In this document: positions 4,421 to 62,895 of the stretch, piece by piece
Layout of the letters: every line of letters begins with the position of its first letter
How positions within the stretch are numbered: position 1 is the stretch's first letter
DNA from: Microglena sp. YARC
Taxonomy: Eukaryota > Chlorophyta > Chlorophyceae > Chlamydomonadales > Chlamydomonadaceae
Reading direction: 5' to 3'
Assembly (NCBI GenBank): GCA_022414725.1
Contig: CM039464.1
Location: 51,850,017-51,914,016, forward strand
DNA length: 64,000 nt
Notes under the pieces: generated by a model
Databases searched by the model: none
What the model was told of the DNA's origin: nothing
Seen by the model: the letters and a program-made list of their open reading frames with translations, nothing else
Made by a program: the position numbers and the translations under genes

Positions 4421-5394
4421 CCCACCCCACCTCCACCCCTCCCTCCCCTCCTTATGCCAACATCCTGCAGCTTCTCCTTACCGTCACTCCTCCCCATGCC
4501 AACCCCTCCACTGCCACCTCTTCCTACCCTTTCCTCATCCCAACCCTCTCCACTTCTCCTTACCATCACCGTCATTGGCGCTCCTGTAATCCCCATCCAA
4601 CCCACTCCACCACCCTCTTCCTAACCCTCTTCATCTAATCCAGGCTGCACTTCTCCTTACATCACCCCTCCCCATCCAACATCTCCACCCCTTTACCCTA
4701 CCACTCCATCCCCAATCACGCCCCTCCCGTCCCCGCACACTCCTTGAGAGCCCCTCCCCCTCCCCTTAGGTCTTTCGCTGACGAAGCGAACGCGGTGGGT
4801 TGAAGCTTCGGCCATAGGTTAGCTCATGGGTCGGTGTCGTCACTCTCCACCTAGGTCCTCCTTACCCTCCGCTCGCCACATCCACCTCCCCTCCCATACC
4901 CTACCCTCCCACCCTCACACCTCCCACCTCACTCGCACCCCTCACTACCCTCCCCAGCCCAACTCACTCCCATCATCCGCTCTCCTACCTCCATCCCCCA
5001 ACCTCACCCCTACCCTCCCGCCCCCTACCGCCTCCACATCCAACTCATCCGCTCCCCACCTCACCCCTACCCTTCCTACTCCTCCACATCCAACCCACCC
5101 TCCCCCCCATCCAACTCACCCCTACCTGCCCATCCAAATCATCACCCCTCCCCGCCCCTACCCCTCCCCATCCCATCCAACTCTCTCACTCCCCCCCTAC
5201 CACCGCGCCCCTCAGGTCTTTGCTGACGAACAGGAATGCGGTGGTTGGAGCCTCGCCATGGCTAGCTCCATGGGTCGGTGTCGTCACTCTTACCTTGGCT
5301 GTCCTTACCCCCTCCCCATTCCCACCTCACCCCCTCCCTTAACATCCCACCTTCACTCCCCCCCCCGCCCCCTACCCCTACCCCTACCCCTCAG
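4421..5394 (+). repeat. Pyrimidine-rich intron with two copies of the next exon's 5' edge
   Basis: CCCCTCC/ACCCCT-rich intronic sequence. At 4770-4846 (after CCCCTTAG) and 5216-5290 (after CCCCTCAG) lie mutated copies of the first roughly 75 bases of the exon that begins at 5395. Both copies stop matching at the same word, GTCGTCACTCT, and both carry indels or substitutions that break the frame. Confidence 0.8.
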
Positions 5395-5625
5395 GTCTTC
5401 GCTGACGACAGGAACGCGGTTGTTGGAGCCTCGGCCATGGTTAGCTCCTGGGTCGGTGTCGTCACTCTCATCTTGGCCATTGTTATGAACACCAGCGCCA
5501 TTGACAGTCTGCAGAACGGTATTTGCTCGGCCATCTCCACCCAGTGGTTCAAAGACCAGCACATCATCTTCCCTAGAGTAATCGTCGTCATTATCAACGT
5601 CCCACTCATCGTCGTCTCTTTGCAA
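5395..5625 (+). CDS. SSS-like transporter exon A
   Basis: 231 bp, 77 codons in phase 0 (VFADDRNAVVGAS to VVSLQ). The acceptor is CCCCTCAG at 5394 and the donor GTGAGT at 5626. It has two hydrophobic helices, around SWVGVVTLILAIV and VIVVIINVPLIVV, separated by a polar loop with SAIDSLQNG. This is the only one of three copies of its 5' edge that is open throughout. Confidence 0.75.
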
Positions 5626-8600
5626 GTGAGTAGGAGTGGCGGAAAGTAATGAGAACCCCCTGGTGGGGCGTGGTGTTAAGGGAACCACCGTCGTACAAGC
5701 GGGCAGAAGAACGGTCTAAAAACCACCTCAAACTGGACAAGCTACCATCGCGGTTGACAGCGACCTGCAACGCTAAGAGCGACCCTAGGGGGAGTCGAAC
5801 CCCCGACTCTTCGTTCTCGGAGTGATTCGGTCTACCACTAAACCAATGTATATCAATGAGAGGGGCTAAAACTAAGGGTAAAGATAAAGCAATGAAATGA
5901 CAGGTCGTCAACATTATCAACCTCATCGTCGTCTCTTTGCAAGTAAGTAGAGTGTGAATAAAGATCAAAAATGAATTTGGCATCGACCTTCGATATAACT
6001 CAAACCACCCCTTTTCCCTTTTCACCCAACTAGTAAGCAAACCACCCCTTTTCCCTTTTCACCCAACTAGTAAGCAAACCACCTTTTTCCTTTCCCTTTT
6101 CACCCAACTAGTAAGCAAGCCACCCCTTTTCCCTTTTCACCCAACTAGTAAGCAAACCACCCCTTTTCCCTTTTCACCCAACTAGTAAGCAAACCACCCC
6201 TTTTCTTATCAGCCCAACTAGTAAGCCAAACCACCTTTTCCCTTTTCACCCCAACTAGTTAAGCAAACCAACCGCCCTTTTCCCCTTTTCACCCCAAGCG
6301 CCCTTTTCCACCCAACCTTTTCCACCCAGCCTTTTCAACCCAACTAGCTAAGCAAACCACCCTTTTCCCTTTTCACCCAACTAGTAAAGCAAACCACCCC
6401 TTTTCCCCTTTTTCACCCAACTAGTAAGCAAACACCCCTTTTCCCCTTTTCACCCAACTAGTAAGCAATAACACCCCTTTTCCCTTTTCACACCCAACTA
6501 GTAAGCAAACCACCCCTTTTCCACGCCTTTATCACCCAACCTTTTCCACCCAATCCTTTTCCACCCAGCCTTTTCACCCAACTAGTAAGCAACTGAAATG
6601 ACTGGTTCGCAACATTAATCAACGTCCCACTCATCGTCGTCTCTTTGCAAGCGGGTAGAGTGCGAATAAAGATCAAAGATGAACTTGACGCGCGACTATG
6701 ATATAAACTCTAACCACCCCCAGCTTTATCACAAAATCTTAATCATCATCATCATCATCATCAATTATCTCCTCATCGTCATCGCCTTGCAAGTGAGTAA
6801 CCAACTCCCACAGCACCGTAGCACCCCAGTAACCCAACTCCACAACACCCAGTAACCAACTCCGCACACACCCAGTAGAACCAACTCCCCACAACACCCC
6901 AGTAACCAACTGCCCACATAACACCCCAGTAACCAACTCCCACAACACCCCAGTAACCAACACCCACAACACCCCTAGCCTTCTCAACAAACTAAGGGTA
7001 AAGATAAAGCAATGAATTGACTGGTCGTCAACATCATCAACATCACCCTCCTCTTCGTCCCATTGCAAAGTGAGTAACCAACTCCCACAACCTAGCCTTC
7101 TCAACAAACTAGGGGTAAAGAACCCCCACCCCCCCCCCTCAGAACAACCCCAGTCATAAACCTCTTCTCAACCCTTATCCCTCCGCCCCCCTCCCCCCCC
7201 CCCCCTCTCCCCATAACCCACCAGTCATCAAACCTCTTCTCACACCCTTATCCTCCTCCCCCCTCCCCTCCCCCCCCCTCCCCCCCCTTCTCCTCCACCC
7301 ATACGCACCCCCCAGTCATCAACCTCTTCTCACCGTCCTCTATCCCTCCGCCCCCTGCTCATCAGCGTCTTCACCAACCAGTTTGTATCAGAATCAGCAG
7401 CATCAAGCCTCTTCTCTACCCCTTCAACCTCCACTCCCTCCCCAGAACTGCCCAGTCATTAACCTCCTCTTCATCAGTAACATGATTATTACTTGCTGCT
7501 TCATTTCCCTGCTCATCAGCGGCACTGTCACCAACCAGATCTTTACAGGGTCATCTGCATCAAGCCTCTTCTTTACCCCTCAACCTCTTAGCCCCTTCAA
7601 ACTCCATCCCTTACTCCTCCACTCCTCCCCCTCCCTCCCTCCCCAGAACTACCCCGTCATTAACCTCTACTCACCCTTATCCCTCCGCCCCTCCCCTTCC
7701 CCTATATAGACAGAACTACTGAGAATGTCTTGAACCTCTTCTCCATCCCTTACTCCTCCACTCCTCCCCCTCCCTCCCTCCAGACCTACCCCCTTACACG
7801 CTCCACTCCTCCCTCCCTCCACAGAACTACCCACCCCGTCATTAATCTCTTCTTGATCATCATGTAACATGATCACCACTTGTTGCTTCATCCCGGTGGT
7901 CATCGGCATCGTCACTGACAAGATCGTATCAGAGTCTGCCGCCATCTTCAGCTGCGTTACTGCCATCCTCACTGCCCTTGCCTATGGCATCGGTGTCTCT
8001 TGGCAGAGCGACCAGGTGGCTGACTCATTCGACTGCGGTGCATGGTGAGTTACAGAGGTTTGTTTCCTACTGGTTTTGTCTGCCTACTTGTCTCTGGCTA
8101 CAAATCATAGTGCGTTCTTGCCATCCTGTCTACTCTATCTGTAAAGGAATGATACCGCCTGGTGGTGGCATTGGGGCCTCGTGGCAGAGCGACCGAATGA
8201 CTGACTCCTTTGACTGTGGGGCATGGTGAATCACAGTGGTGTGTATCCTATACCTAAATGCATGCACATATATAGGCACATAAAAATACACATAACATCA
8301 TCGCACAAGGCACGATTGATGCGACTGTGGGGCATGGTGAGATACAGAGGTGTGTGTATCCTATACCCATATGCCTGCACATACATATACATATAACAAC
8401 ATCGTACAAGGCACAATTGATGCGACTGTGGCGCATGGTGAGTCACAGTGGTGTGTATCCTATACCCATAAGCATGCACATACATATAGGCACATACATA
8501 TACATATAACAACATCGTACAAGACACAATTGATGCGACTGTGGCGCATGGTGAGATACAGTGGTGTGTACTCTATACCCATAAGCATGCACATACATAT

Positions 8601-9188
8601 AGGCACATACATATACATATAACAACATCGTACAAGACACGATTGATGCGACTGCGGGGCATGGTGAGTCACAGTGGTGTGTATCCTATACCCACATGCA
8701 TGCACATTTATAGGCGCACACATATACATGTAACAACATCGCACAAGACACAATTGATGCGACTGTGGCGCATGGTGAGATACAGTGGTGTGTACTCTAT
8801 ACCCATAAGCATGCACATACATATAGGCGCATACATATACATATAACAACATCGCACAAGACACGATTGATGCGACTGTGGCGCATGGTGAGTCACAGTG
8901 GTGTGTACTCAATACCCATAAGCATGCGCATACATATACAAATATATAAACATACACATAAAACATATACCTTGTAGTAAGGTATACTATGTAATTTATA
9001 TATCATATACAACCTGTTTCTCTACCTCTCTCAACATCTACCTGTACCTCACTACTCTACCATCTAAATTCTATGCCCCGGTTTTCTATCTCTGTGTCTC
9101 ATGTGCGCACACACACCACCACCGCCTCACAGTTTCACTTTCTATGGTAACCAGAACTTTACCTATACCCTATCCTCTATCACACCTA

Positions 9189-9251: not shown

Positions 9252-9514
9252 GTATGAGTACTTTGGTATCGCTTGCCTGGGTGCGCACACACCAAAGAAC
9301 ACACCTACACCATCCGCCTCTCAGGTTCACCTTCTTTGGCAACCAGAACTTCTCGTATGAGTACTTTGGTTTCGCATGCATCGGCTCTATTGCGGGTCTC
9401 GTCCTTTGGGAGGGCTTTGCCTTCCTGTTCAAGCTCTGTGGCATCCAGGGCCCTGGCATCAGTGGAGTGCTCAAGGGACTACCAGGCTTCAGTGTTATCA
9501 CAGGTGCGCAGATT

Positions 9515-9545: not shown

Positions 9546-10460
9546 GTAAGGGTAAGGGTAGCCAGGCTTGTAGGGCAGGGGACTCTGATGAGGCGGGGGG
9601 GGAGGGGGGGGGGGGCAGGGGGGGGGGGCATCGAGGGCCCTGGCATCAGTGGAGTGCTCAGGACTACAGGCTTCAGTGGTATGACAGGTGCGCAGAGAGT
9701 GGAGGGGGGAGAGGATAAGATGGAAGGGGTAAAGGGTAGCCAGATGTGGATAGAGGATGGGGTGAAAGGGGTAAAGGGTAGCTAGATTGTCCACCCACTG
9801 CCACCGCTGCTGCCATCCACCCCTAACCCCACAGCACACCACCCTAACCCACACCTAACCACTACACTCACACACGCTGCTGCAGTGGAAGCATGGACTT
9901 CGACCTCCTGGACTACTAGCCCTTCAAGTTTTTTTGTCATGGGCAAGCTCCATTTAAGTACTTCTCACACCATACGAACCAACCAACCAACCAACCAACC
10001 AACCAACCCCCCCCCCCCCCTAGCCCCCTAGCTCCCCCCATCATGCCGTCCAATCTTTACCCACCTACCCACATCCACCTGCTGCCATCCACGCCTACCC
10101 CCAGCCCCAACCCAAACCACCCACCCACGTAACCACCCACACGCACACCTAACAACCCCTAACCCACCAACACCCACAACCACCTGTGCAGGTGGAAGCA
10201 TGGGCTTCGACCTCCTGGACTACCAGCCCTTCAAGTTTTGTGTCATGGGCAAGCTCCATGGACCTTTGCATGGCACCGTACCCGGGCAGCCGAAGCGAGA
10301 CGGGGACACAAGCTCCTCTGATTCGGGCGACAGGACAGAGACAGCAAGCCCGGTGTATCATGGTGCAGAGCCAGTGGCCGCGAAGGGCTCCGAGCCAGTG
10401 GTTCAGTCCACCCCTCAGCTGCGTGTAGACATGGCTGGAGGATCTGCTGTTCCGCAATAG
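5395..10460 (+). CDS. Probable sodium:solute symporter (SSS) family transporter, C-terminal part, four exons
   Basis: Four exons at 5395-5625, 7825-8044, 9325-9503 and 10192-10460 join in compatible phases (0, 2, 1) and end at TAG 10458-10460. They encode about five hydrophobic segments, then a polar tail. The first exon carries NTSAIDSLQNG followed by a membrane helix (VIVVIINVPLIVV); the second reads as ANM-type hydrophobic helices; the third ends in a Trp/Phe-rich helix. A serine- and aspartate-containing SAIDSLQNG segment followed by INVPLIV is what I associate with SSS-family symporters (solute uptake coupled to sodium or protons, plasma membrane). The family call rests on that resemblance only, and the substrate is unknown. 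Upstream exons must lie left of 5395. The second exon has frame-breaking indels near its start, so the gene is either damaged or misassembled there. Confidence 0.6.
5646..5855 (-). mobile_element. tRNA-derived SINE, near full length
   Basis: In the minus orientation it reads: a tRNA-like head (TGGTTTAGTGGTAGACCGAA, box A-like), the box B-like GGGTTCGACTCCCCC, the shared body TTGCAGGTCGCTGTCAACC and GCGATGGTAGCTTGTCC, and a 3' end related to CACGCCCCACCAGG. It lies just inside the intron after exon A. The other copies in the window are at 18097, 19161, 39089, 45447, 50437 and 53376. Confidence 0.8.
5856..7440 (+). repeat. Transporter intron with echoes of exon A's 3' edge and satellites
   Basis: Copies of the exon A 3' edge and donor (CTCATCGTCGTCTCTTTGCAA plus GTGAGT-like) occur near 5907-5945, 6608-6652, 6764-6795 and 7028-7074. 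Between them are a 38-40 bp array built on ACCCAACTAGTAAGCAAACC (6010-6600, about 14 units) and a 24-bp array on CCCCAGTAACCAACTCCCAC (6800-6970). From about 7143 the pattern switches to copies of the next exon's 5' edge (CCAGTCATNAACCTCTTCTC). Confidence 0.8.
7441..7824 (+). repeat. Partial copies of the 5' edge of transporter exon B
   Basis: The copy at 7450-7580 follows a CCCCAG acceptor and reads openly as NCPVINLLFISNMIITCCFI and onward, but loses similarity after TVTNQI. A second copy starts at about 7650 and is shorter. Earlier degraded copies start near 7147, 7213 and 7315; the last extends into the region matching TCATCGGCATCGTCAC of exon B. All lie upstream of the full-length exon B at 7825. 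Confidence 0.75.
7825..8044 (+). CDS. SSS-like transporter exon B (frameshifted near its 5' end)
   Basis: The acceptor is CCACAG at 7824 and the donor GTGAGT at 8045; the exon ends in phase 2 (TG, completed to Trp by the next exon). Open from about 7870: MITTCCFIPVVIGIVTDK and onward to DSFDCGAW, giving two hydrophobic helices. Compared with the intact partial copy at 7450, the first 45 bases contain a 4-base insertion (CCCACCCC for CCCC) and an extra T (CATGTAAC for CAGTAAC), a net shift of +5. This is either a pseudogene lesion or a consensus error. Confidence 0.7.
8045..9324 (+). repeat. Transporter intron: minisatellite made from an exon end plus donor
   Basis: At 8165-8230 there is a copy of the end of exon B (GTGGCAGAGCGACCGAATGA onward to GGGGCATGGTGA). 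It continues into a minisatellite at about 8230-8950, roughly six units of about 113 bp. Each unit contains GCGACTGTGGNGCATGGTGA, the exon end and splice donor. A (TC)n run lies at 9190-9248. Copies of the next exon's 5' part occur at 9116-9160 (TTCTATGGTAACCAGAACTT) and 9251-9290 (TATGAGTACTTTGGTATCGC). Confidence 0.85.
9325..9503 (+). CDS. SSS-like transporter exon C
   Basis: The acceptor is CCTCTCAG at 9324 and the donor GTGCGC at 9504. The first G completes the Trp codon from exon B. It reads FTFFGNQNFSYEYFGFACIG and onward with a helix ending LVLWEGFAFLF, then CGIQGPGISGVLKGLPGF. It ends one base into a Gly codon. Open throughout. Confidence 0.75.
9504..10191 (+). repeat. Transporter intron with copies of both flanking exon edges
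   Basis: At 9628-9692 is a copy of exon C's 3' edge with its donor (GGCATCAGTGGAGTGCTCAG, then ACAGGTGCGCAG). At about 9893-9957 is a copy of exon D's 5' edge (TGGAAGCATGGACTTCGACC) containing an in-frame stop. The rest is G-runs (9530-9620), (CCAA)n near 9970-10006 and CCCACC-rich sequence. Confidence 0.8.
10192..10460 (+). CDS. SSS-like transporter terminal exon D
   Basis: The acceptor is CTGTGCAG at 10191 and the stop is TAG at 10458-10460. It begins GGSMGFDLLDYQPFKFCVMG and continues as a hydrophilic, probably cytosolic tail rich in Ser, Asp, Gly and Pro. No helix follows the DYQPF segment. Confidence 0.7.
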
Positions 10461-25000: not shown

Positions 25001-28000
25001 GTGTTTGGAAGATTGTGTGTGTGTGTCTAGTTTATATATGTTAGTGTGTGTTTGGAAGATTGTGTGTGTGTGTCTAGTTTATATATGTTAGTGTGTGTTT
25101 GGAAGATTGTGTGTGTGTGTCTAGTTTATATATGTTAGTGTGCGTTTGGAAGATTGTGTGTGTGTGTCTAGTTTATATATGTTAGTGTGTGTTTGGAAGA
25201 TTGTGTGTGTGTGTCTAGTTTATATATGTTAGTGTGTGTTTGGAAGATTGTGTGTGTGTGTCTAGTTTATATATGTTAGTGTGTGTTTGGAAGATTGTGT
25301 GTGTGTGTCTAGTTTATATATGTTAGTGTGTGTTTGGAAGATTGTGTGTGTGTGTCTAGTTTATATATGTTAGTGTGTGTTTGGAAGATTGTGTGTGTGT
25401 GTCTAGTTATATATGTTAGTGTGTGTTTGGAAGATTGTGTGTGTGTGTCTAGTTTATATATGTTAGTGTGTGTTTGGAAGATTGTGTGTGTGTGTCTAGT
25501 TTATATATGTTAGTGTGTGTTTGGAAGATTGTGTGTGTGTGTCTAGTTTATATATGTTAGTGTGTGTTTGGAAGATTGTGTGTGTGTGTCTAGTTTATAT
25601 ATGTTAGTGTGTGTTTGGAAGATTGTGTGTGTGTGTCTAGTTTATATATGTTAGTGTGTGTTTGGAAGATTGTGTGTGTGTGTCTAGTTTATATATGTTA
25701 GTGTGTGTTTGGAAGATTGTGTGTGTGTGTCTAGTTTATATATGTTAGTGTGCGTTTGGAAGATTGTGTGTGTGTGTCTAGTTTATATATGTTAGTGTGT
25801 GTTTGGAAGATTGTGTGTGTGTGTCTAGTTTATATATGTTAGTGTGTGTTTGGAAGATTGTGTGTGTGTGTCTAGTTTATATATGTTTAGTGTGTGTTTG
25901 GAAGATTGTGTGTGTGTGTCTAGTTTATATATGTTAGTGTGTGTTTGGAAGATTGTGTGTGTGTGTCTAGTTTATATATGTTAGTATGTGTTTGGAAGAT
26001 TGTGTGTGTGTGTCTAGTTTATATATGTTAGTGTGCGTTTGGAAGATTGTGTGTGTGTCTAGTTTATATATGTTAGTGTGTGTTTGGAAGGTTGTGTGTG
26101 TGTCTAGTTTATATATGTTAGTGTGTGTTTGGAAGATCATGTGTGTGTGTCTAGTTTATATATTTGTATGTGTATGTTTGGAAGATCATGTGTGTGTGTC
26201 TAGTTTGTATATGTTAGTGTGTGTTTGGAAGATCATGTGTGTGTGTGTCTAGTTTGTATATTTGTATGTGTATGTTTGGAAGATCATGCGTGTGTGTCTA
26301 GTTTGTACATGTTAGTGTGTGTTTGGAAGATTGTGTAAGTGTTTGTGTGTGTGAAACATGTGTGTGTGTAGTTTGTATGTGTATGTGTGTGTTTGAAACA
26401 TTGTGTGTGTGTGGAATATGTAGGGACCGGCATATCATATGATGTTGACCAAAGGCGAGTATGAAATCATAAGATATCATACAAATTACATCATATGATA
26501 CTGTATGTAAATGGTAACTTTAGCCTAATTACACTGTCGGCATCATATGATGACATGGTATCATATGATGACATGGTATCATATGATGACATGGTATCAT
26601 ATGATGACATGGTATCATATGATGACATGGTATCATATGATGGCATGATATCATATGATGACATGATATCATATGATGGCATGATATCATATGATGGCAT
26701 GATATCATATGATGACATGATATCATATGATGACATGATATCATATGAGAACATGATATCATATGATGACATGATATCATATGAGAACATGATATCATAT
26801 GATGACATGATATCATATGATAACATGATATCATATCATATCATATTGCCTATCCCTAAGAATATGTGTTTGTGTGTAGTTTACATGTGTGTGTATGTGT
26901 ATGTGTATGCTTACATACGTGTGTTTGTGTGGACCATGGTGTGTGTGTAATTTATATGTGTGTCTGTGTGTATGAGTGTGTGTGGAACATGGTGTGTGTG
27001 GAACATGGTGTGTGTGGAACATGGTGTATGTGTTTGTGTGTAGTTTACATGTGTGTCTATGTGTATGAGTGTGTGTGGAACATGGTGTGTGTGCAGTTTG
27101 TATGTGTATGTGTGTGTTTGTGTGTGTGGAGCATGGTGTGTGTGTGGTTTGTATGTGTATGTGTGTGTTTGTGTGTGTGGAGCATGGTGTGTGTGCAGTT
27201 TATGTGTGTATGTGTATGTGTGTGTTTGTGTGTGTGGAGCATGGTGTGTGTGTGGTTTATATGTGTATGTGTGTGTTTGTGTGTGTGGAGCATGGTGTGT
27301 GTGCAGTTCATATGTGTGTGTTTGTGTGTGTTTGTGTGTGTGGAGCATGGTGTGTGTGTGGTTTATATGTGTGTGTGTGTTTGTGTGTGTGGAGCATGGT
27401 GTTCGTGTGTTTTATATGTGTATATGTGTATGTCTATGTGTGTATGTGTGTGTTTGGAATATCATTTGTGTCTATTCTATTCTATTCTATTCTATTCTAT
27501 TCTATATTCTATTCTATTCTATTCTATTCTATTCTATTCTATTCTATTCTATTCTGTTCTATTCTAGTCTATTCTGTTCTATTCTGTTCTATTCTTTTTA
27601 TCTTATCTTATCTTATCCTATCCTATCCTATCCTATCCTATTGAGTTGAGACTTTCCCAACCGACCAACCAACCAACCAACCAACCAACCAACCAACCCA
27701 CCAACCAACCAACCAACCAACCCACACCACAGGCAACCACTTGTAGACTGACACTACACTGTGCTACACTGGGACCTACTATACGGGAGTGTACAACAAA
27801 ATAGAAACTGACTAACCAACCAACCAATCAACCAACCCACCAACCAACCAACCAACTAACCAGCCAACCAACTCACCCACCAACCAACCAACCAACCCAC
27901 CAACCCACCAACCCACCAACCAACCAACCCACCCACCAACCAACCAACCAACCAACCAACCAACCAACCAACCAACCAACCAACCAACCAACCAACCAAC

Positions 28001-29339
28001 CAACCAACCAACCAACCAACCACAGGCAACCACCTGGAGATCGACACCGAGGGCTACACTGGGGCCTACTACACTGGGGCGTACAACCCCCCGCCCCCCC
28101 CACCCCCTCCTCGGCCAAGCCAAGCCAAGCCCAACTTGCGATTCGTGTACCCCCCTGATGGCGTGTACGTGGGCGTCACCATGAGCTTCTACGGGCAGAA
28201 CTTTATTCCTGAGTGTGTCGTAGTCATCGACGGCAACATTACGTGCCCCACGGATTTCATCTCCGAAAACCTGCTTACGGCCAAGGCCTGCGAAGTCGGC
28301 CAAGTTCTCCTGATCTGCCCGGTCGACCCCAAGTACCCTGTCGCCTGGAACACTGGGGTGAACGTGTCAGAGAACGGACACAAGAACTTCCCCCCCGCCC
28401 CCTACGTCCAGGGCATTCCCCCACGCCCCCCCCTCCCGACTTCCCCCCCCCCAGACAGCTTGTACGGCCACCCAGGCCCTACTGGACCCGCTGGACCCAT
28501 GGGCCCCGCAGGTAGGCCCAGAGGTGTTGCTGTATGGAAAGATTCAAATTCAAATGGAATTCAAATTCAATTTTTTTTTCAAGCTTTTTATAGCTTTTAA
28601 AGCTTTTAAAGGCTTTCATCAAGCTTTTTATAGCTTGTAAAGCTTTTCATCAAGCTTTTTATAGCTTATTGGGGTCCATGTAGGGCCATGTGTGTGTGTG
28701 TGTGTGTGGTGGTGGTGGTAGTGTGCGTGTGTGTGTGTGGTGTGTGTGGGGGGTCTTTACAGCGGCAAGGGCCAAAACGGGGTCAAAAGTAGCGATCGCT
28801 ATATATAGCGGGCAAAAATCCCTGACGGCCACCCAGGCCCTACTGGACCAGATGGACCCCACGGCCCCCCAGGTAGGTCTGGAGGTGTTGCTGTACAGAA
28901 ATATTCAAATTCAAATGGAATTCAAATTAAAATTCAAATTGAAATTCATTCCCCCATGTCCCCTCCCCTCTGGACACCAACCTCCCTTAACCACATGTAC
29001 GGCCACCAAGGATTATTTTTCAAATCTGAAACCCAAACCAAACCAAACCAAACCAAACCAAACCAAACCAAACCCAAACCCAAACCCAAACCCAAACCCA
29101 AACCCAACCCAAACCCAACCCAAACCAACCTAAGCTAACCCAACCCAACCCAACCCAACCCCAAGTTAACTAAATTACCCTTTCAATCCCATCCCAAACC
29201 AAACCAAACCAAACTAAATTAACCCATCCATTTCAACCCAACCCAATACTCCAGGAAATCCAGGACACCCAGGTCAGACAGGCTTCCCCGGCGACAAGGG
29301 TGCAACAGGACCCAATGGGTCAAGAGCCTCCACTGGACT

Positions 29340-29375
<36 letters not shown>

Positions 29376-31601
29376 AAAAAAACTAACCCGAACCAAACCA
29401 AACCAAACAAAATTACCCTATCCATTCCAACGCAAACCAATATAATGCAAACCAACCCAACCCAAAGCAAACCAGACTAAACCAAACCAAACCAAATTAC
29501 CCTATCCATCCCAACGCAAACCAATATAATCCAAACCAACCCAACCCAAAGCAAACCAGACTAAACCAAACCAAACTAAATCAAACCAAACCAAACCAAT
29601 CCAAAGCAAACCAAACCAAACCAAACTATACTAAATTTCCCTATCCATCCCAAACCAACCCAACCCAATACTGCAGGCAATCCAGGACACCCAGGCCAGA
29701 CAGGCTACCCCAGTGACAAGGGAGCTCCAGGCCCCAATGGATCAAGAAGTGCCACTGGACTAACACAAACCAAACCAAACCAAAGCAAACCAAACAAAAA
29801 TAAACCAAGCTAAATTTCCCTAACCATCCCAACCAAACCCCAAACCCCAAACCAAAACAAAATTAAACCAAAACCAAAACTAAACGCAAACCAAACCAAA
29901 CCAACCAAACGCAAAGCAAAGCAAAGCAAACTAAAGTACACTAAATTTCCCTATCCATCCCAACCCGAACCACACCAATACTGCATGAAATCCAGGACGC
30001 CTAGGCCAGACAGGCTTTCCTGGTGAGAAGGGAGCTACAGGCCCCAATGGATCAAGAGGCGCCACTGGACTAAACCAAACCAAACCAAACCAAACCAAAC
30101 CAAACCAAACCAAACCAAACCAAACCAAACCAATCCAAAGCAAACCAAACTAAATTACCCTATCCATCCCAACCCAAACTAAATTTCCCTATCTATCCCT
30201 ATATATTCAGGAAATCCAGGACACCCAGGCCAGACAGGCTACCCCAGTGACAAGGGTGCCACACGACCCAATGGTTCAAGAGGCGCCACTGGACTAACCG
30301 CCCCCCCCCACCCACCCCACCCCACCCCACCCCACCCCACCCCACCCCACCCACCCCACCATAAAAACTAAACCGAACCAAACTAAACTAAACCAAACTA
30401 AATTACCCTATCCATTCCAACGCAAACCAATATAATCCATACCAACCCAAACCAAACCAAACCAAACCAATCCAAAGCAAAGCAAACCAAACTAAACCAA
30501 ACTAAACTAAATTTCCCCATCCATCCCAAACCAAACCAAACCAATACTGCAGGAAATCCAGGACACCCAGGCCAGACAGGCTTCCCCGGCGAGAAGGGAG
30601 CTACAGGACCCAATGTTTCAAGAGGTGCCACTGGACTAACCCAACCCAACCCAACCCAACCCAAACAAGGTTAAACCAAAATGAACCAAAATAAATTACC
30701 CTATCCATCCCAACCAAACCCAAAACCCAAAACAAAAACAAAATAAAACTAAAAACCAAACTAAAAGCAAAGCAAAGCAAACTAAACTAAACTAAATTAC
30801 CCTATCCATCCCAACCCGAACCAAACCAATACTGCAGGAAATCCAGGACGCCCAGGCCAGACAGGCGTCCCCGGCGAGAAGGGAGCTACTGGCCCCAATG
30901 GTTCCAGAGGCGCCACTGGCCCTGACGGTCCTCAGGGGTCCAACGGAGTGCGTGGCAATCCCGGCCAAACAGGACAGCCTGGCCATGCCGGAGAAAAGGG
31001 TACCCCAGGGAGAGCGGGTACCCAGGGCCCTGTTGGCAATGTTGGAGATCTGGGACCTGCTGGATACCCTGGCCCTGCTGGTGGGTGGGGATGGGGTGTA
31101 GCGTGTGTGTGTGTGGGGGGGGGGGGGAGCACACTGGAGTAAAGGGTGCCCCAGGGCATGCTGGTACCCAGGGCCCTGTTGGCAATGTTGGAGATCTGGG
31201 ACCTGCTGGATACCCTGGCCCTGCTGGTGGGTGGGGGTGGGGTGGATGGGGTGTAGCGTGTGTGTGTGTGTGTGTGGGGGGGGGGGGGGGGAGCACACTG
31301 GAGTAAAGGGTGCCCCAGGGAGAGCGGGTACCCAGGGCCCTGTTGGCAATGTTGGAGATCTAGGCCCTGCTGGATATCCCGGCCCTGGTGGTGGGTAGGG
31401 GTGGGAGTGGGGGTGGGAGGACGAGGGGGTGGGGGGAATGGTGTGTAGTGTGTGTGGGTGTGTGGGGGGGGGGGCACGCTGGAGGAAAGGGTGCCTCAGG
31501 CCCTGTTGGCAATGTTGGAGATCTTGGCCCTGCTTGTGGGTAGGGGTGGGGGTGGGGGTGGGAGGACGAGGGATGGGGGGGATGGGGTTTAGTCTGTGTG
31601 T

Positions 31602-31654
<53 letters not shown>

Positions 31655-34600
31655 GGGGGGGAGGGAGGCACGGTGGAGTACAGGGTACCCAGGGCCCTGT
31701 TGGCAATGTTGGAGATCTTGGTCCTGCTGGATATCCTGGCCCTGGTGGTGGGTAGGGGTATAGCATATCCTACAGCATATCGTATGACATGATATATCAA
31801 TAATATCAATATACTGTACAGCATATCGTATGATATCATATGACATATCATGGATGTGAATATTTCGTACAGCATACCGTTTGATATAACATCATGCATC
31901 ATTAATATCAATACATCATACAGCATATCGTTATATATCATATCATGTGACATATCATGAATATCATTACATCGTACAGCATATTGTTAGATATCATATG
32001 TCATATCATGAATATCAATACATCGTACAGCATATTGTTAGATATCATATGTCATATCATGAATATCAATACATCGTACAGCATATTGTTAGATATCATA
32101 TGTCATATCATGTCATATCAATACATCGTACAGCATATTGTTAGATATCATATGTCATATCATGTCATATCAATACATCGTACAGCATATTGTTAGATAT
32201 CATATGTCATATCATGAATATCAATACATCGTACAGCATATTGTTAGATATCATATGTCATATCATGTCATATCAATACATCGTACAGCATATTGTTAGA
32301 TATCATATGTCATATCATGTCATATCAATACATCGTACAGCATATTGTTAGATATCATATGTCATATCATGTCATATCAATACATCGTACAGCATATTGT
32401 TAGATATCATATGTCATATCATGTCATATCAATACATCGTACAGCATATTGTTAGATATCATATGTCATATCATGAATATCAATACATCGTACAGCATAT
32501 TGTTAGATATCATATGTCATATCATGTCATATCAATACATCGTACAGCATATTGTTAGATATCATATGTCATATCATGTCATATCAATACATCGTACAGC
32601 ATATTGTTAGATATCATATGTCATATCATGTCATATCAATACATCGTACAGCATATTGTTAGATATCATATGTCATATCATGAATATCAATACATCGTAC
32701 AGCATATTGTTAGATATCATATGTCATATCATGTCATATCAATACATCGTACAGCATATTGTTAGATATCATATGTCATATCATGTCATATCAATACATC
32801 GTACAGCATATTGTTAGATATCATATGTCATATCATGTCATATCAATACATCGTACAGCATATTGTTAGATATCATATGTCATATCATGTCATATCAATA
32901 CATCGTACAGCATATTGTTAGATATCATATGTCATATCATGTCATATCAATACATCGTACAGCATATTGTTAGATATCATATGTCATATCATGTCATATC
33001 AATACATCGTACAGCATATTGTTAGATATCATATGTCATATCATGTCATATCAATACATCGTACAGCATATTGTTAGATATCATATCATCATGTCATATC
33101 AATACATCGTACAGCATATTGTTAGATATCATATGTCATATCATGTCATATCAATTTACCGTTACAGAATATTGTTATATATCATGTGATATATTGTGCA
33201 ATAATCTTGGAATCTATGCAATATTCAGAATGTTTTTTATAACTAACCCGGATATGTTAACGAGCACCACTACCACTACCCCCATGCAAGTCTGCATACA
33301 AGTATATGATAAATTAGGGAATGTAATCACGTAATAAATAGGGGACTATAAGTACCAAAAAAGGAAACAAATGATCACATAAATAACCAAATAATGAAAT
33401 AATCAAATACAGAAACAAATGATCACATAAATAACCAAATAATCAAATAATCATATACAGAAACAAATGATCACATAAATAACCAAATAATCAAATAATC
33501 AAATAAGGAAACAAATGATCGCATAAATAACGAATAATAAAAAAATCAAATAAGGAAACAAATGATCACATAAATAACCAAATAACCAAATAACCAAATG
33601 AGGAAATAAATGATCAAATACATTATCAAACAATCAAATAACCAAATAAGGAGACAAATAATCAAATACATAATCAAATTAGTAATCAAATAATCTAATC
33701 ATCAAATAAATAATCAAATACTCAAATACTCAAGTAATCAAATAAGGAAGAAAATTCACATTACTGCCTCAGTTGTGTTAACAAGCACCATCACTAATCA
33801 CCACCACTATTCCCATGCAGGTCTGCCTGGTGGCCCTGGACACCCAGGCTCAGGGGGCCAGCCTGGCAACCCTGGCCAGCCTGGCCAAACAGGCCAAACA
33901 GGCCAGCCTGGCGAGCAAGGTCACGCCGGCTCTCAGGGAGCCCAGGGTCCCCAGGGCCCTGTCGGAGATGCTGGACAGCCTGGCACCGATGGTTCGCCAG
34001 GTCACCCTGGTCCTGCTGGGTCTGAAGGCCCCCCTGGGTCCAAGGGACCCCACGGTCCCGAGGGACCCGCTGGACCCCAGGGCAACCTAGGGCCAACAGG
34101 GCCCCAGGGCCCCAAGGGATCCGAGGGAGATGCAGGCCACCCAGGACCGGCAGGTGACCCAGGACCGGCGGGCCAACCAGGGCCAGCAGGTCTCCCGGGA
34201 TCAGGGGGTCACACCGGTCTCCTCGGACCCCAAGGTGCTCGTGGAAACCCGGGATCTGTAGGCCCCCCTGGATACGCTGGCCCTGCCGGCCCGACTGGCC
34301 CCCAAGGTTACCAGGGAGAGACAGCCCCCCGTGGATCTATAGGACCCGCTGGCCCCGCCGGCCCTAACGGTTCTCCTGGCCCACATGGAACTCTGGGCCC
34401 TGCAGGGCCTTCTGGTCCCACTGGTCCTAAGGGGGTCCTCGGACCCACAGGCCCCCCTGGTCCCCGTGGGCCCTTGGGACCCACCGGGTCCGCTGGAGTT
34501 ACTGGTCAACTAGGCGCCCTTGGCTCAGTGGGGGGGCCTGGCCCCGAGGGCCAGGTGGGAGATAGAGGTGTGCCCGGACCTAATGGCATACCGGGAAGTG

Positions 34601-35351: not shown

Positions 35352-35426
<75 letters not shown>

Positions 35427-35505
35427 GTGTGCACTCACAGGTTTGTGTGTGTGTGACATCTTAAGGACCGACTGGACCCACTGGTGAGTTTAGGGATCGG
35501 GGGGG

Positions 35506-35536
<31 letters not shown>

Positions 35537-38500
35537 TTACCCCAGGGGGGTTAGGGGAGAGAGTACTTAGTAAGGGCATTGGCCCGCCTTGGGCCCACCC
35601 CCCCTAATGAAATAAGGGAGGGAACACCCCCAGGGAACATCCCAAGGGAACATATGTGTGTGTGTGACATCTCGAGGGACCATTGGACCCACTGGTGCGT
35701 TTAGGGCTCGGACAGGTTCCGTTACCCAATTGTATGTATGTATGTTTACAGCCCAGGTTCCGTTACCCAATTGTATGTATGTATGTTTACAGCCCAGGTT
35801 CCGTTACCCAATTGTATGTATCTATGTTTACAGCCCAGGTTCCGTTACCCAATTGTATGTATCTATGTTTAAAGCCCAGGGGTAGCTAAATAGGCTACTG
35901 GCTCAATGGGAGAAAAGGGAGGCGCAGGTGCCCCTGGCCCTGCTGGTTCTGACGGTGTTCCTGGGGCTGATGGTCACCGGGGTGCTACCGGCCCTACTGG
36001 TGCTCCTGAGGGTCACCGGGGCTCTACTGGTCCTGGGGTCCTGGGGGTCCTGGGTCCTTGGGATCACCGGGGCCCCGGTGGTACTGACGGTGCTCCTGTG
36101 GCTGAAGGTCAACCGGGCTCTACTGGCCCTACTGGTGCTCCTCATGATCACCGGGGATCTACTGGTCCTGGGGGTCCTAGGTCCTGGGGGTCATTGTGGC
36201 CCTGCTGGTCCAGACGGTGCTCCTGGGGCTGATGGTCACCGGGGATCTACTGGTCCTGGGGGTCCCGGGTCCTGGGGGTCCTGGGGGTCACCGGGGCCCT
36301 AGTGGTACTGACGGTGCTCCTGGGGCTGATGGTCAACGGGGCTCTACTGGCCCTACTGGTGCAGTGGGAGATAGGGGGGATGGTGGTGACCCTGGCCCTG
36401 GTGGCCCTATGGGCCCCACTGGACATGATGGTGACCTTCTGGATCTCGAGGGCCCACAAGACCCACTGGTAAGTCTAGGGATCCTCTAAACCACTGCTTT
36501 TGGCAGAGCCCCCCTCCGGGGTGGCGGGAGCTCCTAGATTCACCCCGTTGTCAGTTTGATCGTCCGACCGACCGATGACTGAGACGAAGCCTGTCATGTC
36601 AGCCGACTGTGTCATAAGTCATCACTAACTGGCTTGATCTTGCACATGGCCATCAAGGTAGGCCAGGCTTGGATTAGGGACTTTTATTTCGCCACCTATT
36701 GCGACCGAATAATTGAAGCCTGACTTGTCAGGCAACTGTCTCATAAGTCATAACTAACTGGCTTAGGTCAGCTCCATCATTGCCACCTGACGTTCCGTTT
36801 CCAGCACTCTCCGCCAAATTCCCCCAAAACCCCACCCCACCCCATCTCCCCATATTGTTTTTTTGACCCCCCCAAACCCCCCCAAACCCCGCACCTCATC
36901 CCCCCATATTGGCTTTTTTGACCCACCCAAACCCCCCCCCCCCCACCACCCCACCCCATCCCCCCATATTGGCTTTTTTGACCCACCCAAACTCCCCCAA
37001 CCCCCCCACCCCATCTCCCCATTTTGGCCTTTTTGACCCACCCAAACTCCCCCCCCCCCCCATATTGGCTTTTTTTACCCACCCAAACTCCCCCCCACCC
37101 ACCCCCCACCCCACCCCATCTCCCCATTTTGGCTTTTTTGACCCACCCAACATCCCCCCAACCCCCCACCCCATCCCCCTCTGTCGGCTTTTCTGTACCC
37201 AACAAAATTCCCTTCAACCTCCCCCCCTCCCCCACCCTGTCAGGCTTTTCTGGACACACCAGAACTTTCCAAAACTCCTCAACTTCCTCCAAATCCCCCA
37301 CATCCCCCCCCTCCAGGCGTTTTTGGACCCACTGGCCCTGCTGGCCAAGAAGGCCCTGCAGGTTCTCCTGGATCCAAGGGACCCACTCCCTCTAAATACC
37401 CCCCCACCCAACCCCCACCCCATCCCCTTGCAGGCTTTTCTGGACCCACTGGCCCGGCCAATAAACAAATCCTCTGTGCTGCTGGTTTGTGACGAGAGGC
37501 CCACCTCCTGGAGTGAAATACCTTCCACAACTAAAAACAAAGCTGGTCAAGGAGCCCCTGCAGGTTCTCCTGGATCCAAGGGACCCACTCCATCCAAATC
37601 CCCCATTCCTTCACCAAAACTCCCCACCCCACCCCCAACCCCATCCCCTTGCAGGCTTTTCTGGACCCACTGGCCCAGCTGGCCACGGAGGCCCTGCAGG
37701 TTCTCATGGATCCAAGGGACCCACTCCCTCCAAATCCCCCCCACGCACCCCACTCCATCCCCTTGCAGGCTTTTCTGAACAAACTGGCCCGGCCGGCCAA
37801 GAAGGCCCTGCAGGTTCTCCCGTATCCAAGGGGTCCACTCCCTCCAAATCCCTCCCACACACTCCACCCCACAACCCACCCCACACCCCACCCCATCCCC
37901 TTGCAGGCTTTTCTGGACCCACTGGCCCAGCCGGCCAAGAAGGCCCTGCAGGCTCTCCCGGATCCAAGGGGCCCACAGGCATCCCAGGCTTCTTTGGCGA
38001 CTCTGGTGCCCCTGGAGCCCGAGGCCCCTTGGGCCCTGACGGACCCCAGGGTGTTCCTGGCCCAGCTGGTGGCGCTGGTTCCGTGGGCTCCGACGGATCT
38101 CCCGGCCCGCTTGGACCTGTCGGTTCCAGGGGCTTGCAGGGGCCCAGTGGCACACCAGGCCCAAATGGACCTGCTGGGGATATTGGTGCCCAGGGAGGGA
38201 AGGGAGCCACCGGTGCAGAGGGAGTCCAAGGTTCAAAGGGTGATACCGGTCCCAAGGGAATCTTCGGAGCACCTGGCCCTTTTGGCCCAATGGGCCCCAC
38301 AGGTATGCCTATTATGTTTATTTTTATTATTTTTATTATATTATTTTTATTATATTATTATATTTATGTTAGATTTATTATAGTATAGTATAGTATAGTA
38401 TAGTATAGTATAGTATAGTATAGTATAGTATAGTATAGTATAGTATAGTATAGTATAGTATAGTATAGTATAGTATAGTATAGTATAGTATAGTATAATA

Positions 38501-43179: not shown

Positions 43180-43870
43180 AGGCTAACACTGGCCTCTGGC
43201 ATAGCTTTGCTGCAGCTGCTGCTAATGATGATGATGATTTTGATGAAAATCGTACACCACAGATATCGTGAATGGGTGCCTGGTGCCTGGCTGGTGTTAC
43301 AATGCCAATGATCAAATTCCAGCCTTGTTGACTGAGATGCATGTGGTATGCCACAAGAGATAGAGTCTAACACTTGCCTCTGCCATGGCTTTGCTGCAGC
43401 TGCTGCTGCTGCTGATGATGATTTTGATGAAAATCGTACACCACAGATATTGTGAATGGGTGCCTGGTGCCTGGCTGGTGTCACAATGCCAATGATCAAA
43501 TTCCAGCCTTGTTGACTGAGATGCATGTGATATTCCACAAGAGGTAGAGGCTATCACTTGCCCCTGCCATGGCTTTGCTGCAGCTGCTGATGCTGATGCT
43601 GATGATTCTGGTCATGATTTGGACGAACATCATATACCACATATATTGTGAATGGGTGCGTGCCAAGTGCCTGGCTGGTGTTACACCGCCAACAAGCACA
43701 TATCAGCCTTTGTCGGCTTTGATGCATGTGGTCCACCAAAAGAGATAGAAGCTAACACTTGGCTCTGCCATGGCCAGGATGATTCTGGTGATGATTTGGA
43801 TGAATACCAACATCCACATATATATAGAATGTACCCATCAAAAACGATGACCGGCAGTGGTAAGTGACCG
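43180..43870 (+). repeat. Three tandem echoes of the collagen coding end
   Basis: The end of exon 7 (near GATATTGTGGATGGGTACCA to CATGTGGTATGCCACAAGAG) recurs at about 43262-43365, 43445-43545 and 43640-43745. Each copy is preceded by GCTTTGCTGCAGCTGCTGCT or a similar stretch and GATGATGATTTTGATGAAAA. The copies carry frame-breaking changes and lie after the stop codon, so they form a 3' UTR or downstream array. Confidence 0.9.
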
Positions 43871-45634: not shown

Positions 45635-45639
45635 TGTGT

Positions 45640-59480: not shown

Positions 59481-60530
59481 GCTCCCGGGCATAAGAGCAC
59501 CTAGGAAGGGTCCCCTCAATCCGTCCCTCCCCCTCTCTTCCTCAACACTTGTAAGCAGCTCCTAAGGTAAGTTCTCACCATCATTGCAGCCTAGCAGCAC
59601 TAATCAGCTCCAGGGCTGCAAGTAAACCTAGGCAGGGGTCACTCCTTGAATGCCCCCTCGGCTCCGTTCCTTCCCCCCCCCCCCCCCCCTTCCCTCCTTC
59701 CTCCTCTCCAACACACATCACCTGCTAAGCAGCCTCAACTGAGAGGCTCATCACCATCAGTTGCAGCTAGAGCACTACCATCAGCCTCCAGGGCCTGAGC
59801 AACCTAGGCAGGGGGTCCTCATCTGCAGCGCAGCTTTCATCCAGCAGGCAGGGGGATAGTCTATGGCGATCGTACTGCAATTGAATGTTATTTGATTTTG
59901 AAGACTAGATTTTTAATGTTTTAATGTTTGGATGGTGTAACGGCAAGTTTTAATGTTTTGATTTTATTTTTGACTGAATTTTTTGAATTTTTGAATGTTT
60001 GCAAGTTGATTTTTTGAAATTTTTTGAAGATGTTTGAACCTGCTCACATTTCTGGTAGCACTGCCATCATCTTAAGGGTTGGCTGATTCAACCTAGGCAG
60101 GGGGTCCTCATCTGCAGCCAGCTTCTCCAGCAGGGCAGGGGGCATAGTCATGCGATCGGTACCTGCAATTTTGTTTTTTTGTTTTTTTCATGTTGATTTA
60201 TTTCATTTTTTATTTTTGACTGTTTGAATGCTCACATTTCCAGTAGCACTGCCATCATCTTAGGGCTGAAAGCAACCCAGGCATAAGGTCCTCTTCTACC
60301 GCCTGCTTTCCAGCAGGGCAGGGGCATAGTCATGCGATCATACCTGCAATTTTGTTCTTAGTTTTTTTTCATGTTGATTTGTTTCATTTTTTATTTTTGA
60401 CTGTTTGAATGCTCACATTTCCAGTAGCACTACCATCAGCTCCAGGGCTGAGCAACCCAGGCATTACGTCCTCTTCTACCGCCTGCTTTGTCCAGCAGGC
60501 AGGGGGCATAGTCATTGCGATTCCCAGTAT
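59480..60530 (-). CDS. Transaldolase downstream exon, four to five diverged copies
   Basis: Copies of the 5' edge (acceptor TTGCAG, then ACCGATCGCATGACTATGCC) lie on the minus strand at about 60525, 60352, 60162 and 59877. Copies of the part reading EDPLPRLLSPGADGSA lie at about 60480-60425, 60290-60240, 60110-60055, 59830-59765, 59650-59595 and 59520-59480. The 60162 copy has the phase (1) needed by the exon at 62022. Poly-T tracts (60175, 60370) precede the acceptors in + coordinates. Confidence 0.6.
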
Positions 60531-60839: not shown

Positions 60840-60874
<35 letters not shown>

Positions 60875-60933
60875 GTGTGTGTGTGTGTGCATGTGTGTGT
60901 GTCTGTGTGTGTGCATGCTGTGCATGTGTGTGT

Positions 60934-60972
<39 letters not shown>

Positions 60973-62249
60973 ATGTGTGTGTGTGTGTGTTGTGCAATGT
61001 GTGTGGTGTGTGTGTGATGTGTGTGACTGTGTGTGTGTGTGTGTGCTATGGTGGTGTGTGTGTGTGTGTGTGTGTTGTGTGTGTGTTGTGTGGTGTGTGT
61101 GTGTGTGTGTGTGCATGTGTGTGTGTGTGCATGTGTGTGATATTAACCCTGATCTCGTCCCACGAGTCGTTTCCAGTAGAGGACCTCCACGAAGCAGGCA
61201 TGCAGATGGTGCTGTGGCCATGCTTGAATGTTTGGATATGTGAGGTTTAATTCAAACTCATTTATCTAATAGTCACTTTTCTTGCGCTAGGAAAACTATA
61301 GCCTTGGTGCTTGCGCCTGCCTATGCCGATGTCTTTTTAAGACTTGACTGAAATCATAGCGACGCTGCATAGGATTTTTCTGCTCCCCTAAGACAACCTT
61401 CCCACCCTTCCCACCCTTAAAAGCCAAATAAAAGGGTTTGCCGTAAGCCTGGCCGTAACCCCTTAACTTTGCAGTGCGTTTGAAGCTTGAATGTTAGGAT
61501 ATATGAGTTTACATCAACACATGCCAAACGGTGGTTGGGAGTTGGTTTGCCCTGGACTGGCTTAGTGGTACCGTAATTTATTATCCCTTTTTTCCTTCTT
61601 GTGACTTCTCATTTGTTAGCTTCTTACCTCCGCCACTGTAAGTGGTTGAGATCTGGGTCCTGCTCATGCGGGGTTTTTATACCTACGCCACCAAAACGGT
61701 GGTTGGGAGTTTGGTTTTTTGTCCTCGACACACCCCTGATTTGTAATGGGGTTTTTTTTGCTTTGTGGGTGCTTTTCTTTTGTTTAAAAGCACAGAGTCT
61801 CATACACCCTCGCGGTGTCAAGTAGACTTTAACATGTAATGTAATGTAATGTAATGTAATGTAATGTAATGTAATGTAATGTAATGCCTGCGAGGGCCCT
61901 GATCTCGTCCAGCAAATCATTTCCAGTAGAGGATGTCCACGAGGCAGGCAAGCAGAAGGTGCTGTGGCCATGCTTGAATGTTTGGATATCTATATACGTA
62001 TATATTTGAATCAACACACACCTGCGAGGCCCCTGATCTCGTCCAGCAAGTCATTTCCAGTAGAGGATCTCCATGAAGCCGGCATACAGATGGTGTTGTG
62101 GCCGTGCTTGCGGAAGTAGGAGTACATGCGGCGGCAAGCCACGACACCTGGGTCCGCCTCGGGGGCAAAGGACTGGGGTCCGCTGGGGTTGTCGGCCTTG
62201 GTCCACTCCAACACACGCCCGGGAAAGGGGGAGATGAGGGTGGCCGTGG
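59480..62249 (-). CDS. Transaldolase, partial, with repeated exon edges
   Basis: The minus strand encodes two consecutive pieces of transaldolase, the pentose-phosphate enzyme that moves a dihydroxyacetone unit from sedoheptulose 7-phosphate to glyceraldehyde 3-phosphate. Exon 62249-62022 reads TATLISPFPGRVLEW, then FAPEADPGV, then a YSYFRKHGHNT..MPAS segment ending LLDEIRGLAG. This follows the family order LISPFVGRILDW, EEDPGV, IYNYYKKFGYKT, MGASFR and LAGCD. The next piece (from 60162 downward) reads TDRMTMPPALLEKLAADEDP then LPRL, matching the family's LTISPALLEELA..PLPRKL. The Schiff-base lysine lies upstream of LISPF and is not in these exons. The downstream piece is present in several indel-bearing copies, so the true exon cannot be chosen. 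Confidence 0.75.
60531..61142. repeat. Family A copy 7 and a long TG microsatellite
   Basis: 60631-60815 reads in family A orientation from GCAGCGTCGCAAGCGACGTG to CGGGGTAACACTGTGTGTG, where it is cut by a TG-rich tract (60840-61140) with GTGTGCATGTGTG interruptions. Confidence 0.75.
61143..62021 (-). repeat. Transaldolase intron with two echoes of the upstream exon's 3' edge
   Basis: Minus-strand copies at 61985-61886 (KHGHSTFCLPASW, ending LLDEIRALAG) and 61245-61143 repeat the last 90-100 bases of the exon at 62249-62022. Both begin after CATATCCAAACATTC. In between are a duplicated ACGGTGGTTGGGAGTTNGG block (61529, 61696) and a (TAATG)n tract (61829-61886). Confidence 0.88.
62022..62249 (-). 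CDS. Transaldolase internal exon
   Basis: 228 bp (76 codons). On the minus strand the acceptor is GCATCTCAG just before 62249 and the donor GTGTGT just after 62022. It starts with two bases completing a codon and ends one base into Gly, so it is phase-1 compatible with the 60162 piece. The motifs LISPFPGRVLEW, EADPGV and MPASW are intact; Pro replaces the usual Val of LISPFVGR. Confidence 0.85.
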
Positions 62250-62895
62250 CTGAGATGCAGGAGGGTAGGGGGCGGGGGGGAGATGAGGGTGAGGAAGGGG
62301 GAGACTAGAGTGGCAAAGGAATGAGGTCCGATGGGGTTGTCAACCTTGGTCCACTCCAACATATGATTTGGGGCGAGGGAGCGGGAAGGTGAGGGTAGCT
62401 GTGGCCTGAGATTCAGGGAGGGTAGGGGAAAAGGGGTGATGAGGGTGAGGAAGGGGGATATTAGAGTGGCAAAGGATTGAGGTCCGATGGGGTTGTCAAC
62501 CTTGGTCCACTCTAACACACATCCTGTGGAGGGGGAGATGAGGGCGAAGATAGGGTGAAGCTGTGGAGGGTGAGGGAGGGGACAATGAGGTTCCGGCCGC
62601 GGCCACCTGAGATTCTGAAGGGTAGTGGATAAAGGTACGGTGACGAGGGTGAGGAAGAGGGAGATTGGAGTGGCAAAGGATTGAGGTTCGATGGGGTTGC
62701 CAAACCTTCGGTCCACTCCAACCACACGTCAGGGGGAGGGGGAGATGAGGGTGAGGAAGAGGGAAATGAGGGTGGACGTGGTCTGAGATTCTGAAAAGGT
62801 AGGGGAAAGGGGGTGATGAGGTAGAGTGAGGGGGAGATGAGGTCTGATGGGGTTGTCAACCTTGGCCCACTCCAACACACGTCCGACTCACCAAC
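62250..62895 (-). repeat. Four echoes of the transaldolase exon's 5' part
   Basis: Minus-strand copies reading LEWTKVDNPIGPQSFATL or close variants are centred near 62325, 62490, 62690 and 62850. Spacers are CCCTCATCTCCCCC/CTTCCTCACC-rich. All lie upstream of the real exon in gene orientation. Most have VDNPIGP where the real exon has ADNPSGP, so they share a history separate from the exon. Confidence 0.9.

Follow-up and report, generated by a model that had tools for sequence, protein, structure and literature searches.

The introns of the green alga Microglena sp. YARC contain many diverged copies of the edges of the adjoining exons, including their splice sites, and these copies (hereafter echoes) are very probably explained by a nuclear genome in which short tandem duplications arise locally at a high rate, striking introns and the edges between coding and non-coding sequence without distinction. 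They were noticed by a sequence-only reading of a 64-kb stretch of contig CM039464.1 (positions 51,850,017 to 51,914,016 of a 568-Mb assembly), called the window in what follows. We found such copies on both strands as it had described, and also outside the window. We observed the copies themselves, the fixed order in which they lie, a decay that looks neutral, and duplication at junctions as frequent as in random intron sequence.

Exon edges were set for three genes of the window, the number that could be identified out of the four announced by that reading. The split genes mark the window as eukaryotic; a likely transit peptide and the best named hits (Chlamydomonas eustigma, an entry with a Tetraselmis-like tag and Chlamydomonas sp. 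UWO 241) agree with a chlorophyte. Gene 1 gave no Pfam match above the cut-offs, and its tentative label, SSS, was dropped. The second gene is collagen-like (match to PF01391), and the third, on the minus strand, encodes a transaldolase, an identity provided by the related predicted protein P0001, which matches PF00923; exons 1 and 2 of this gene lie just outside the window, in the flanking stretch L002 that continues it. Two families were sampled outside the window: PF00118 chaperonins (64 genome matches, 8 loci taken), whose edges were placed by hand from scored candidates, and PF00133 aminoacyl-tRNA synthetases (29 genome matches, 4 stretches taken), whose edges were set by script alone. 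Altogether, 15 gene loci or stretches of one genome contributed 108 junctions. Each junction query, made of up to 60 exon bases and 20 intron bases, was aligned by the Smith-Waterman algorithm to its own intron over at most 1500 bases, with a threshold score of 45. The counts leave out transaldolase exon 4, edges lacking a clear acceptor or donor, and start and stop edges, which were tested separately. The scores separate well, 91 of 92 being either below 37 or above 53.

At this threshold, a copy was present in the junction's own intron for 17 of the 23 junctions of the window genes (one of them extended by flanking DNA), 30 of 69 in the chaperonin loci and 7 of 16 in the synthetase stretches, i.e., 37 of the 85 junctions sampled outside the window genes; no echo reached 45 at 6/23 window-gene and 39/69 chaperonin junctions. 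Widening the search to 3 kb gave 133 copies at 47 of the 92 junctions of the window genes and chaperonins. Around the three window genes we counted 49 copies scoring at least 45, 40 of them within the window, where more than 30 had been claimed, and nine in L002. In agreement with the proposed tandem duplication across exon edges, 125 of the 133 copies span the junction, i.e., hold intron and exon bases with the splice site, in direct orientation, and inverted copies were found at 0/92 of these junctions. Shuffling the own introns after cutting them in 10-mers left 3 matches in 460, and the junction queries matched introns of other, non-paralogous loci in 0 of 1840 comparisons. An RNA-templated or transposition-like insertion of exon pieces is extremely unlikely: some copies do lie hundreds of bases off and are strongly diverged, but most carry intron flank (median of 50 bases for the nearest copies), and the zero counts for inverted copies and unrelated introns also speak against such insertion.

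Acceptor-edge copies lie upstream and donor-edge copies downstream of the intact exon. Matches on the wrong side occurred at 1/92 junctions (in locus L022) and at 1/16 (position 1502 of the synthetase stretch L031), and each is an echo that had been mistaken for an exon. With the true acceptor, the L022 match becomes an ordinary upstream echo; the L031 junction, itself an echo, was counted as a junction without own-side echo. The order rule of the sequence-only reading holds, and selective sorting is not required for it, because tandem duplication over an edge always leaves the truncated copy on the intron side. When a duplication crosses an acceptor, the intact exon would gain upstream of it an intron tail with a truncated exon head; when it crosses a donor, a truncated exon tail and an intron head would be placed downstream, and more tandem duplication would make arrays of such edge copies. 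The mutational step may be replication slippage or template switching. That the echoes are an assembly artefact, with unresolved haplotypes or mis-joined error-prone reads, is very unlikely; frame-breaking indels in some exons and the presence of assembly gaps favor it, but the copies have indels of their own and a mean identity to the exon of about 89%, and one order and orientation is kept across many independent loci.

The same reading had raised the possibility that splice junctions are preferred sites of duplication, for instance via R-loops or RNA processing at exon ends, and had kept a generally high tandem-duplication rate as the null explanation. Echoes at 17/23 window-gene junctions, a modest excess over a one-sided control and the enrichment of tandem repeats near intron ends in Chlamydomonas and Volvox (PMC3887541, in the part consulted) are in favor of a preference. 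The fair comparison is with random 80-base intron segments, matched for complexity and permitted a copy on either side, because a junction-spanning duplication can leave its copy in the intron only. Such segments were copied as often as junctions: the control predicts 32.3 ± 4.1 for the 30/69 of the chaperonins and 6.4 ± 1.9 for the 7/16 of the synthetases. The rate of duplication also shows no rise towards junctions in the window-gene and chaperonin introns, the proportion of duplicated intron 50-mers at 0-50, 100-200 and 700-1000 bases from the junction being 32/108, 169/475 and 221/435 for the chaperonins and 3/16, 37/99 and 122/177 for the window genes. Copies of stop-codon edges likewise occur, in 2 of 7 genes, and a further such edge scores 42. 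On these three grounds junctions were rejected as a duplication hotspot, a reading that we consider improbable, and the null explanation survives. Segments from exon interiors were copied in 5/26 cases in chaperonins and 1/59 in the window; selection would remove most exon-internal duplications.

Several observations nevertheless weigh against a uniform, indifferent duplication process. The window genes, which were chosen by the finding itself, lie slightly above the control (17/23 vs 14.3 ± 2.3, P 0.165), and a one-sided control predicts 22.1 or 23.0 of 69 for the chaperonins, leaving a modest junction excess at the 30 observed. Exon conservation alone, by keeping old copies recognisable, would tend to give a one-sided excess; by the same route, selection on the exon copies keeps older events visible and could mask a junction deficit or inflate the rate. 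The control segments come from the same loci as the junctions and are not independent of them, and in 11 of the 15 loci or stretches the exon edges were placed manually. For 23 of the 47 nearest copies the alignment covers less than 0.7 of the unit, so a strict head-to-tail abutment may not apply to half of them. Duplication is patchy, the cover by direct BLAST copies ranging from 0.03 to 0.74 across 18 arbitrarily placed 10-kb stretches (0.00 to 0.16 for inverted copies). No copy was found at 5 of 6 tested non-echo stop edges (one of which scores 42) or at the single start-codon edge tested. Finally, the enrichment near intron ends in the two algae (PMC3887541, in the part consulted) was not found here for longer duplications.

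The exons and echoes of gene 1 (plus strand) are the following.
3150..3224, plus: 3' end of an upstream exon, with donor CAG/GTTGGT (3150 is an arbitrary start)
3368-3435 and 3943-4004, plus: donor-edge copies matching the exon ending at 3224
4273-4309, plus: weaker donor-edge copy of the same exon (score 43, threshold lowered to 40)
4751-4832 and 5194-5276, plus: two 5'-edge copies (acceptor and about 60 coding bases) of exon 5395, 92% identical
5395..5625, plus: intact exon, acceptor CAG/GTCTTCGC, donor CAA/GTGAGT
5905-5954, 6613-6662, 6748-6799 and 7025-7076, plus: four 3'-edge copies of exon 5395..5625 with donor; in 6613-6662 the donor GT is now GC
7428-7495 and 7630-7671, plus: two 5'-edge copies of exon 7825
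7825..8044, plus: exon, frame broken near its start in this assembly
8166-8244, 8319-8355 and 8646-8682, plus: 3'-edge copies of exon 7825..8044 with donor (score at least 45); the copies at 8166-8682 overlap the Tandem Repeats Finder (TRF) arrays 8212-8966 (period 337) and 8377-8938 (period 113)
9117..9159, plus: 5'-edge copy of exon 9325
9325..9503, plus: exon
9631-9696, plus: donor-edge copy of exon 9325..9503
9866-9945, plus: acceptor-edge copy of exon 10192
10192..10460, plus: last exon, stop codon at 10460; no copy downstream of this stop edge (score 16)

Those of the collagen-like gene (plus strand) are given below.
27711..27795, plus: 5'-edge copy of the first collagen exon identified
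28026..28511, plus: exon
28825..28892, plus: 3'-edge copy of exon 28026..28511 with donor
29238, 29660, 29967, 30208 and 30534 (span 29238..30612), plus: five 5'-edge copies of exon 30838
30838..31080, plus: exon
31167, 31331, 31499 and 31688 (span 31167..31757), plus: four 3'-edge copies of exon 30838..31080; the match of the third (31499) is limited to coding bases
33821..35332, plus: long GXY exon, whose acceptor has no echo at threshold (score 33)
35458, 35669 and 36416 (span 35458..36483), plus: three 3'-edge copies of exon 33821..35332 with donor; that at 36416 is preceded by a longer degenerate GXY stretch, by eye
37165..37828, plus: six 5'-edge copies of exon 37907; the match of 37541-37578 is limited to coding bases
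37907..38302, plus: exon; no echo of its donor (score 21)
40537-41265 and 41591-43179 (stop), plus: last two exons; no echo at their three junctions (scores 20, 14 and 27)
43304..43767, plus: three copies of the edge at the stop codon (end of the coding sequence, stop and 3' flank)

With these last copies the pattern extends beyond splice junctions. The gene as a whole (28026-43179) encodes a GXY protein whose C-terminal end contains cysteine, in a green alga. The transaldolase gene (minus strand) presents the following elements.
62312..62885, minus: five matches to the 5' part of exon 3 (170-base query)
62022..62249, minus: exon 3; in this assembly its acceptor misses the expected frame by one base (short)
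61887-61976 and 61147-61226, minus: two 3'-edge copies of exon 3
60424-60521, 60243-60359 and 60053-60182, minus: acceptor-edge copies resembling exon 4, found with 60053-60182 as query and included in no count
59771..59893, minus: probable true start of exon 4; its continuation agrees with P0001 by eye and it is indel-rich in this assembly

Frame-breaking indels at or in exons occur at 7825-8044, 62249 and 59771-59893 of the window; together with P0001, which does not have two stretches but otherwise agrees by eye, they suggest residual assembly errors and trouble for gene models at these edges. Elsewhere in the window, the open stretch 48350-48560 contains three similar pieces, each starting TTTCTCCAGGAATGCCATCTG, and is perhaps the fourth gene of the earlier reading or a further echo array. 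A dispersed repeat at 5640-5860 (minus), 39096-39320 (plus) and 45465-45640 (minus) has, by eye, a tRNA-like head and a common tail; it resembles a tRNA-derived short interspersed element (SINE), and ARAGORN reports no tRNA. ARAGORN and Rfam searches of the window both gave no match.

The arrays tend to begin at the exon and to extend inward. The nearest copy lies at a median distance of 175 bases (quartiles 144 and 202) and has a median exon depth of 62 bases (17 to 180). The alignment takes in at least 0.9 of the unit for 14 of the 47 nearest copies and at least 0.7 for 24 of them. In the chaperonin locus L023, one interval has seven donor copies at a spacing of about 93 bases and another has six acceptor copies at a spacing of about 158 bases, and in one 1.8-kb intron of L025 the arrays cover about nine tenths of the sequence (1203 + 414 of 1807 bases). 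We also considered a sharp duplication unit and rejected it; spacings spread widely over about 50-225 bases and become fewer at 225-250, in a survey whose 50-base query is blind to spacings under 50, so a nucleosome reading is not favored. Counted from the exon edge out to the most distant copy, arrays occupy 22,934 of the 72,708 inter-exon bases overall, with 44% (9,352 of 21,331) for the window genes and 26% (13,582 of 51,377) for the chaperonin loci, in line with the idea that this is a route of intron growth that leaves arrays of decoy splice sites. At least one echo is present in 26 of 40 inter-exon intervals, which may contain unannotated exons (one in L026 does). Complex 50-mers with a copy within 1200 bases number 1227/5113 in the 18 arbitrarily placed stretches, 768/2358 in the chaperonin loci (exons included) and 612/1785 in the window. 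All these rates were measured in this one genome, and calling them high is a judgement on general grounds.

Turnover of the echoes is visible in paralogous chaperonin loci. By our own pairing, echo presence differs in 6 of 12 homologous junction pairs (3/7 for L025/L026 and 3/5 for L028/L029). Identity is 76-84% in the six exon pairs compared, and alignment of the introns is confined to pieces, many of which are exon-edge copies. Two intervals of the Cpn60-type paralogs, L028 2904-4178 and L029 2762-3879 (gene orientation), have in common a tandem array about 70% identical, and otherwise these introns align just in short pieces. The loci L025 (7397-9204) and L026 (3213-4895, both in gene orientation) differ in two introns of 1.7-1.8 kb, which is compatible with gain or loss.

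The copies inherit splice sites, and 53 of 67 acceptor decoys and 45 of 59 donor decoys are canonical. Scored with a position weight matrix (PWM) that includes their own parents and is thus biased in their favor, canonical decoys equal real sites, with medians of 10.5 vs 10.1 for acceptors and 9.4 vs 9.2 for donors; the medians for general intron AG and GT are -7.5 and -1.1. These values would suit decoys that are functional, as alternative or recursive splice sites under selection. This is nevertheless an unlikely reading, for three reasons. The splice dinucleotides match the parent in 122/132 acceptors (0.924) and 105/119 donors (0.882), against identities of 0.893 and 0.888 in the exon parts and 0.889 and 0.889 in the intron parts of the echoes; exon depths show no clear frame preference (12, 15 and 20 nearest copies by remainder modulo 3); and echo presence differs between half of the paralogous junction pairs. 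The decoys look neither purged nor kept, because their dinucleotides are conserved about as well as the flanks, relative to which neither purging nor preservation was found.

What could make such decoys tolerable is their arrangement. Both kinds are present in 15 of the 40 intervals, and in each of these 15 the donor echoes all precede the acceptor echoes; therefore the edge copies seen form no decoy exon, which needs an acceptor and then a donor. An intron that grows by duplication at its edges would expand inwards from both ends, with donor decoys first and acceptor decoys last. We infer that the absence of decoy exons explains the tolerance of decoys, and that splicing here may proceed by exon definition, ignoring the decoys since the true exon alone combines an acceptor with a donor a short way behind it. 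In intron definition, as described in the part of the source consulted, splice-site pairs are chosen at the two ends of one intron (PMC3488318), and inner decoys would then make a shorter intron. In Drosophila, spurious 3' splice signals close to an acceptor have been inferred to be selected against (PMC10946897, in the part consulted); there is no necessary conflict with that result, because all but one of the acceptor echoes listed lie at least 97 bases away.

Introners supply splice sites. As with introners (PMC9860276), repeated sequences are found here in introns, but introners place one element in many genes, whereas each array described here derives from its own exon (0/1840 in unrelated introns). 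A closer case is the potato RdRp gene, in which a tandem genomic duplication crossed an intron-exon boundary (Ma, Lan and Niu 2016, PMC4974935; the comparison relies on the part consulted). Both involve direct tandem duplication of an intron tail and exon head, the copy inheriting the splice signals. In potato, however, one event produced a new intron and a new exon piece, whereas here the truncated copy is absorbed by the existing intron, and the copies form arrays that affect 37/85 junctions outside the window genes. Among the matches listed (titles and abstracts, with subscription papers mostly outside), there was no report of exon-edge arrays across many genes, and the potato gene was the only other case of junction-crossing tandem duplication, as far as the consulted parts go. 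The survey of the two chlorophytes found introns to be the densest place for tandem repeats, with enrichment near intron ends (PMC3887541); the richness of duplication in introns is common to those algae and to this one, and the part of the survey consulted mentions neither exon-edge copies nor decoy splice sites.

The Rogers model, as presented in the consulted part of a review (PMC3443670), attributes intron gain to an exon segment that contains AGGT and is duplicated in tandem. It resembles our case in that splice sites are supplied by local tandem duplication, and differs in that the duplications here span existing junctions. Among 41 introns, the signature of that model (p ≤ 0.005) was found at the start in 2 and at the end in 1; these are two introns of L023 and one of the repetitive collagen gene, and in the first L023 case an acceptor array extending as far as the start of the intron accounts for it. 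In the second, L023 4629-5326 (gene orientation), with a donor that is probably GC, the intron start resembles the next exon head (score 32, z 4.2, p < 0.005, 200 shuffles), a resemblance possibly left by an old acceptor array or by an intron born through exon duplication. The signature is absent from the two introns in which L025 and L026 differ: comparison of intron start with next exon head and of intron end with previous exon tail gave no homology, and a Rogers-type birth was rejected for them.

For gene annotation these arrays constitute a warning, because the predicted protein P0001, seemingly from the same organism, is without two stretches that adjoin echo-bearing edges. Junction-crossing duplication is here common at the splice edges of several unrelated genes, and the arrays it leaves offer natural replicates of near-identical competing splice sites, with which exon definition and intron definition can be tested against each other. 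The echo arrays are also one visible way in which introns lengthen. Tentatively, the genome may be regarded as a natural experiment on splice-site choice, in which decoys of equal strength and neutral appearance lie beside about half of the sampled junctions, as strict exon definition, choosing the shortest acceptor-to-donor unit, would predict; no decoy exons being made, introns could grow from their ends at no splicing cost.

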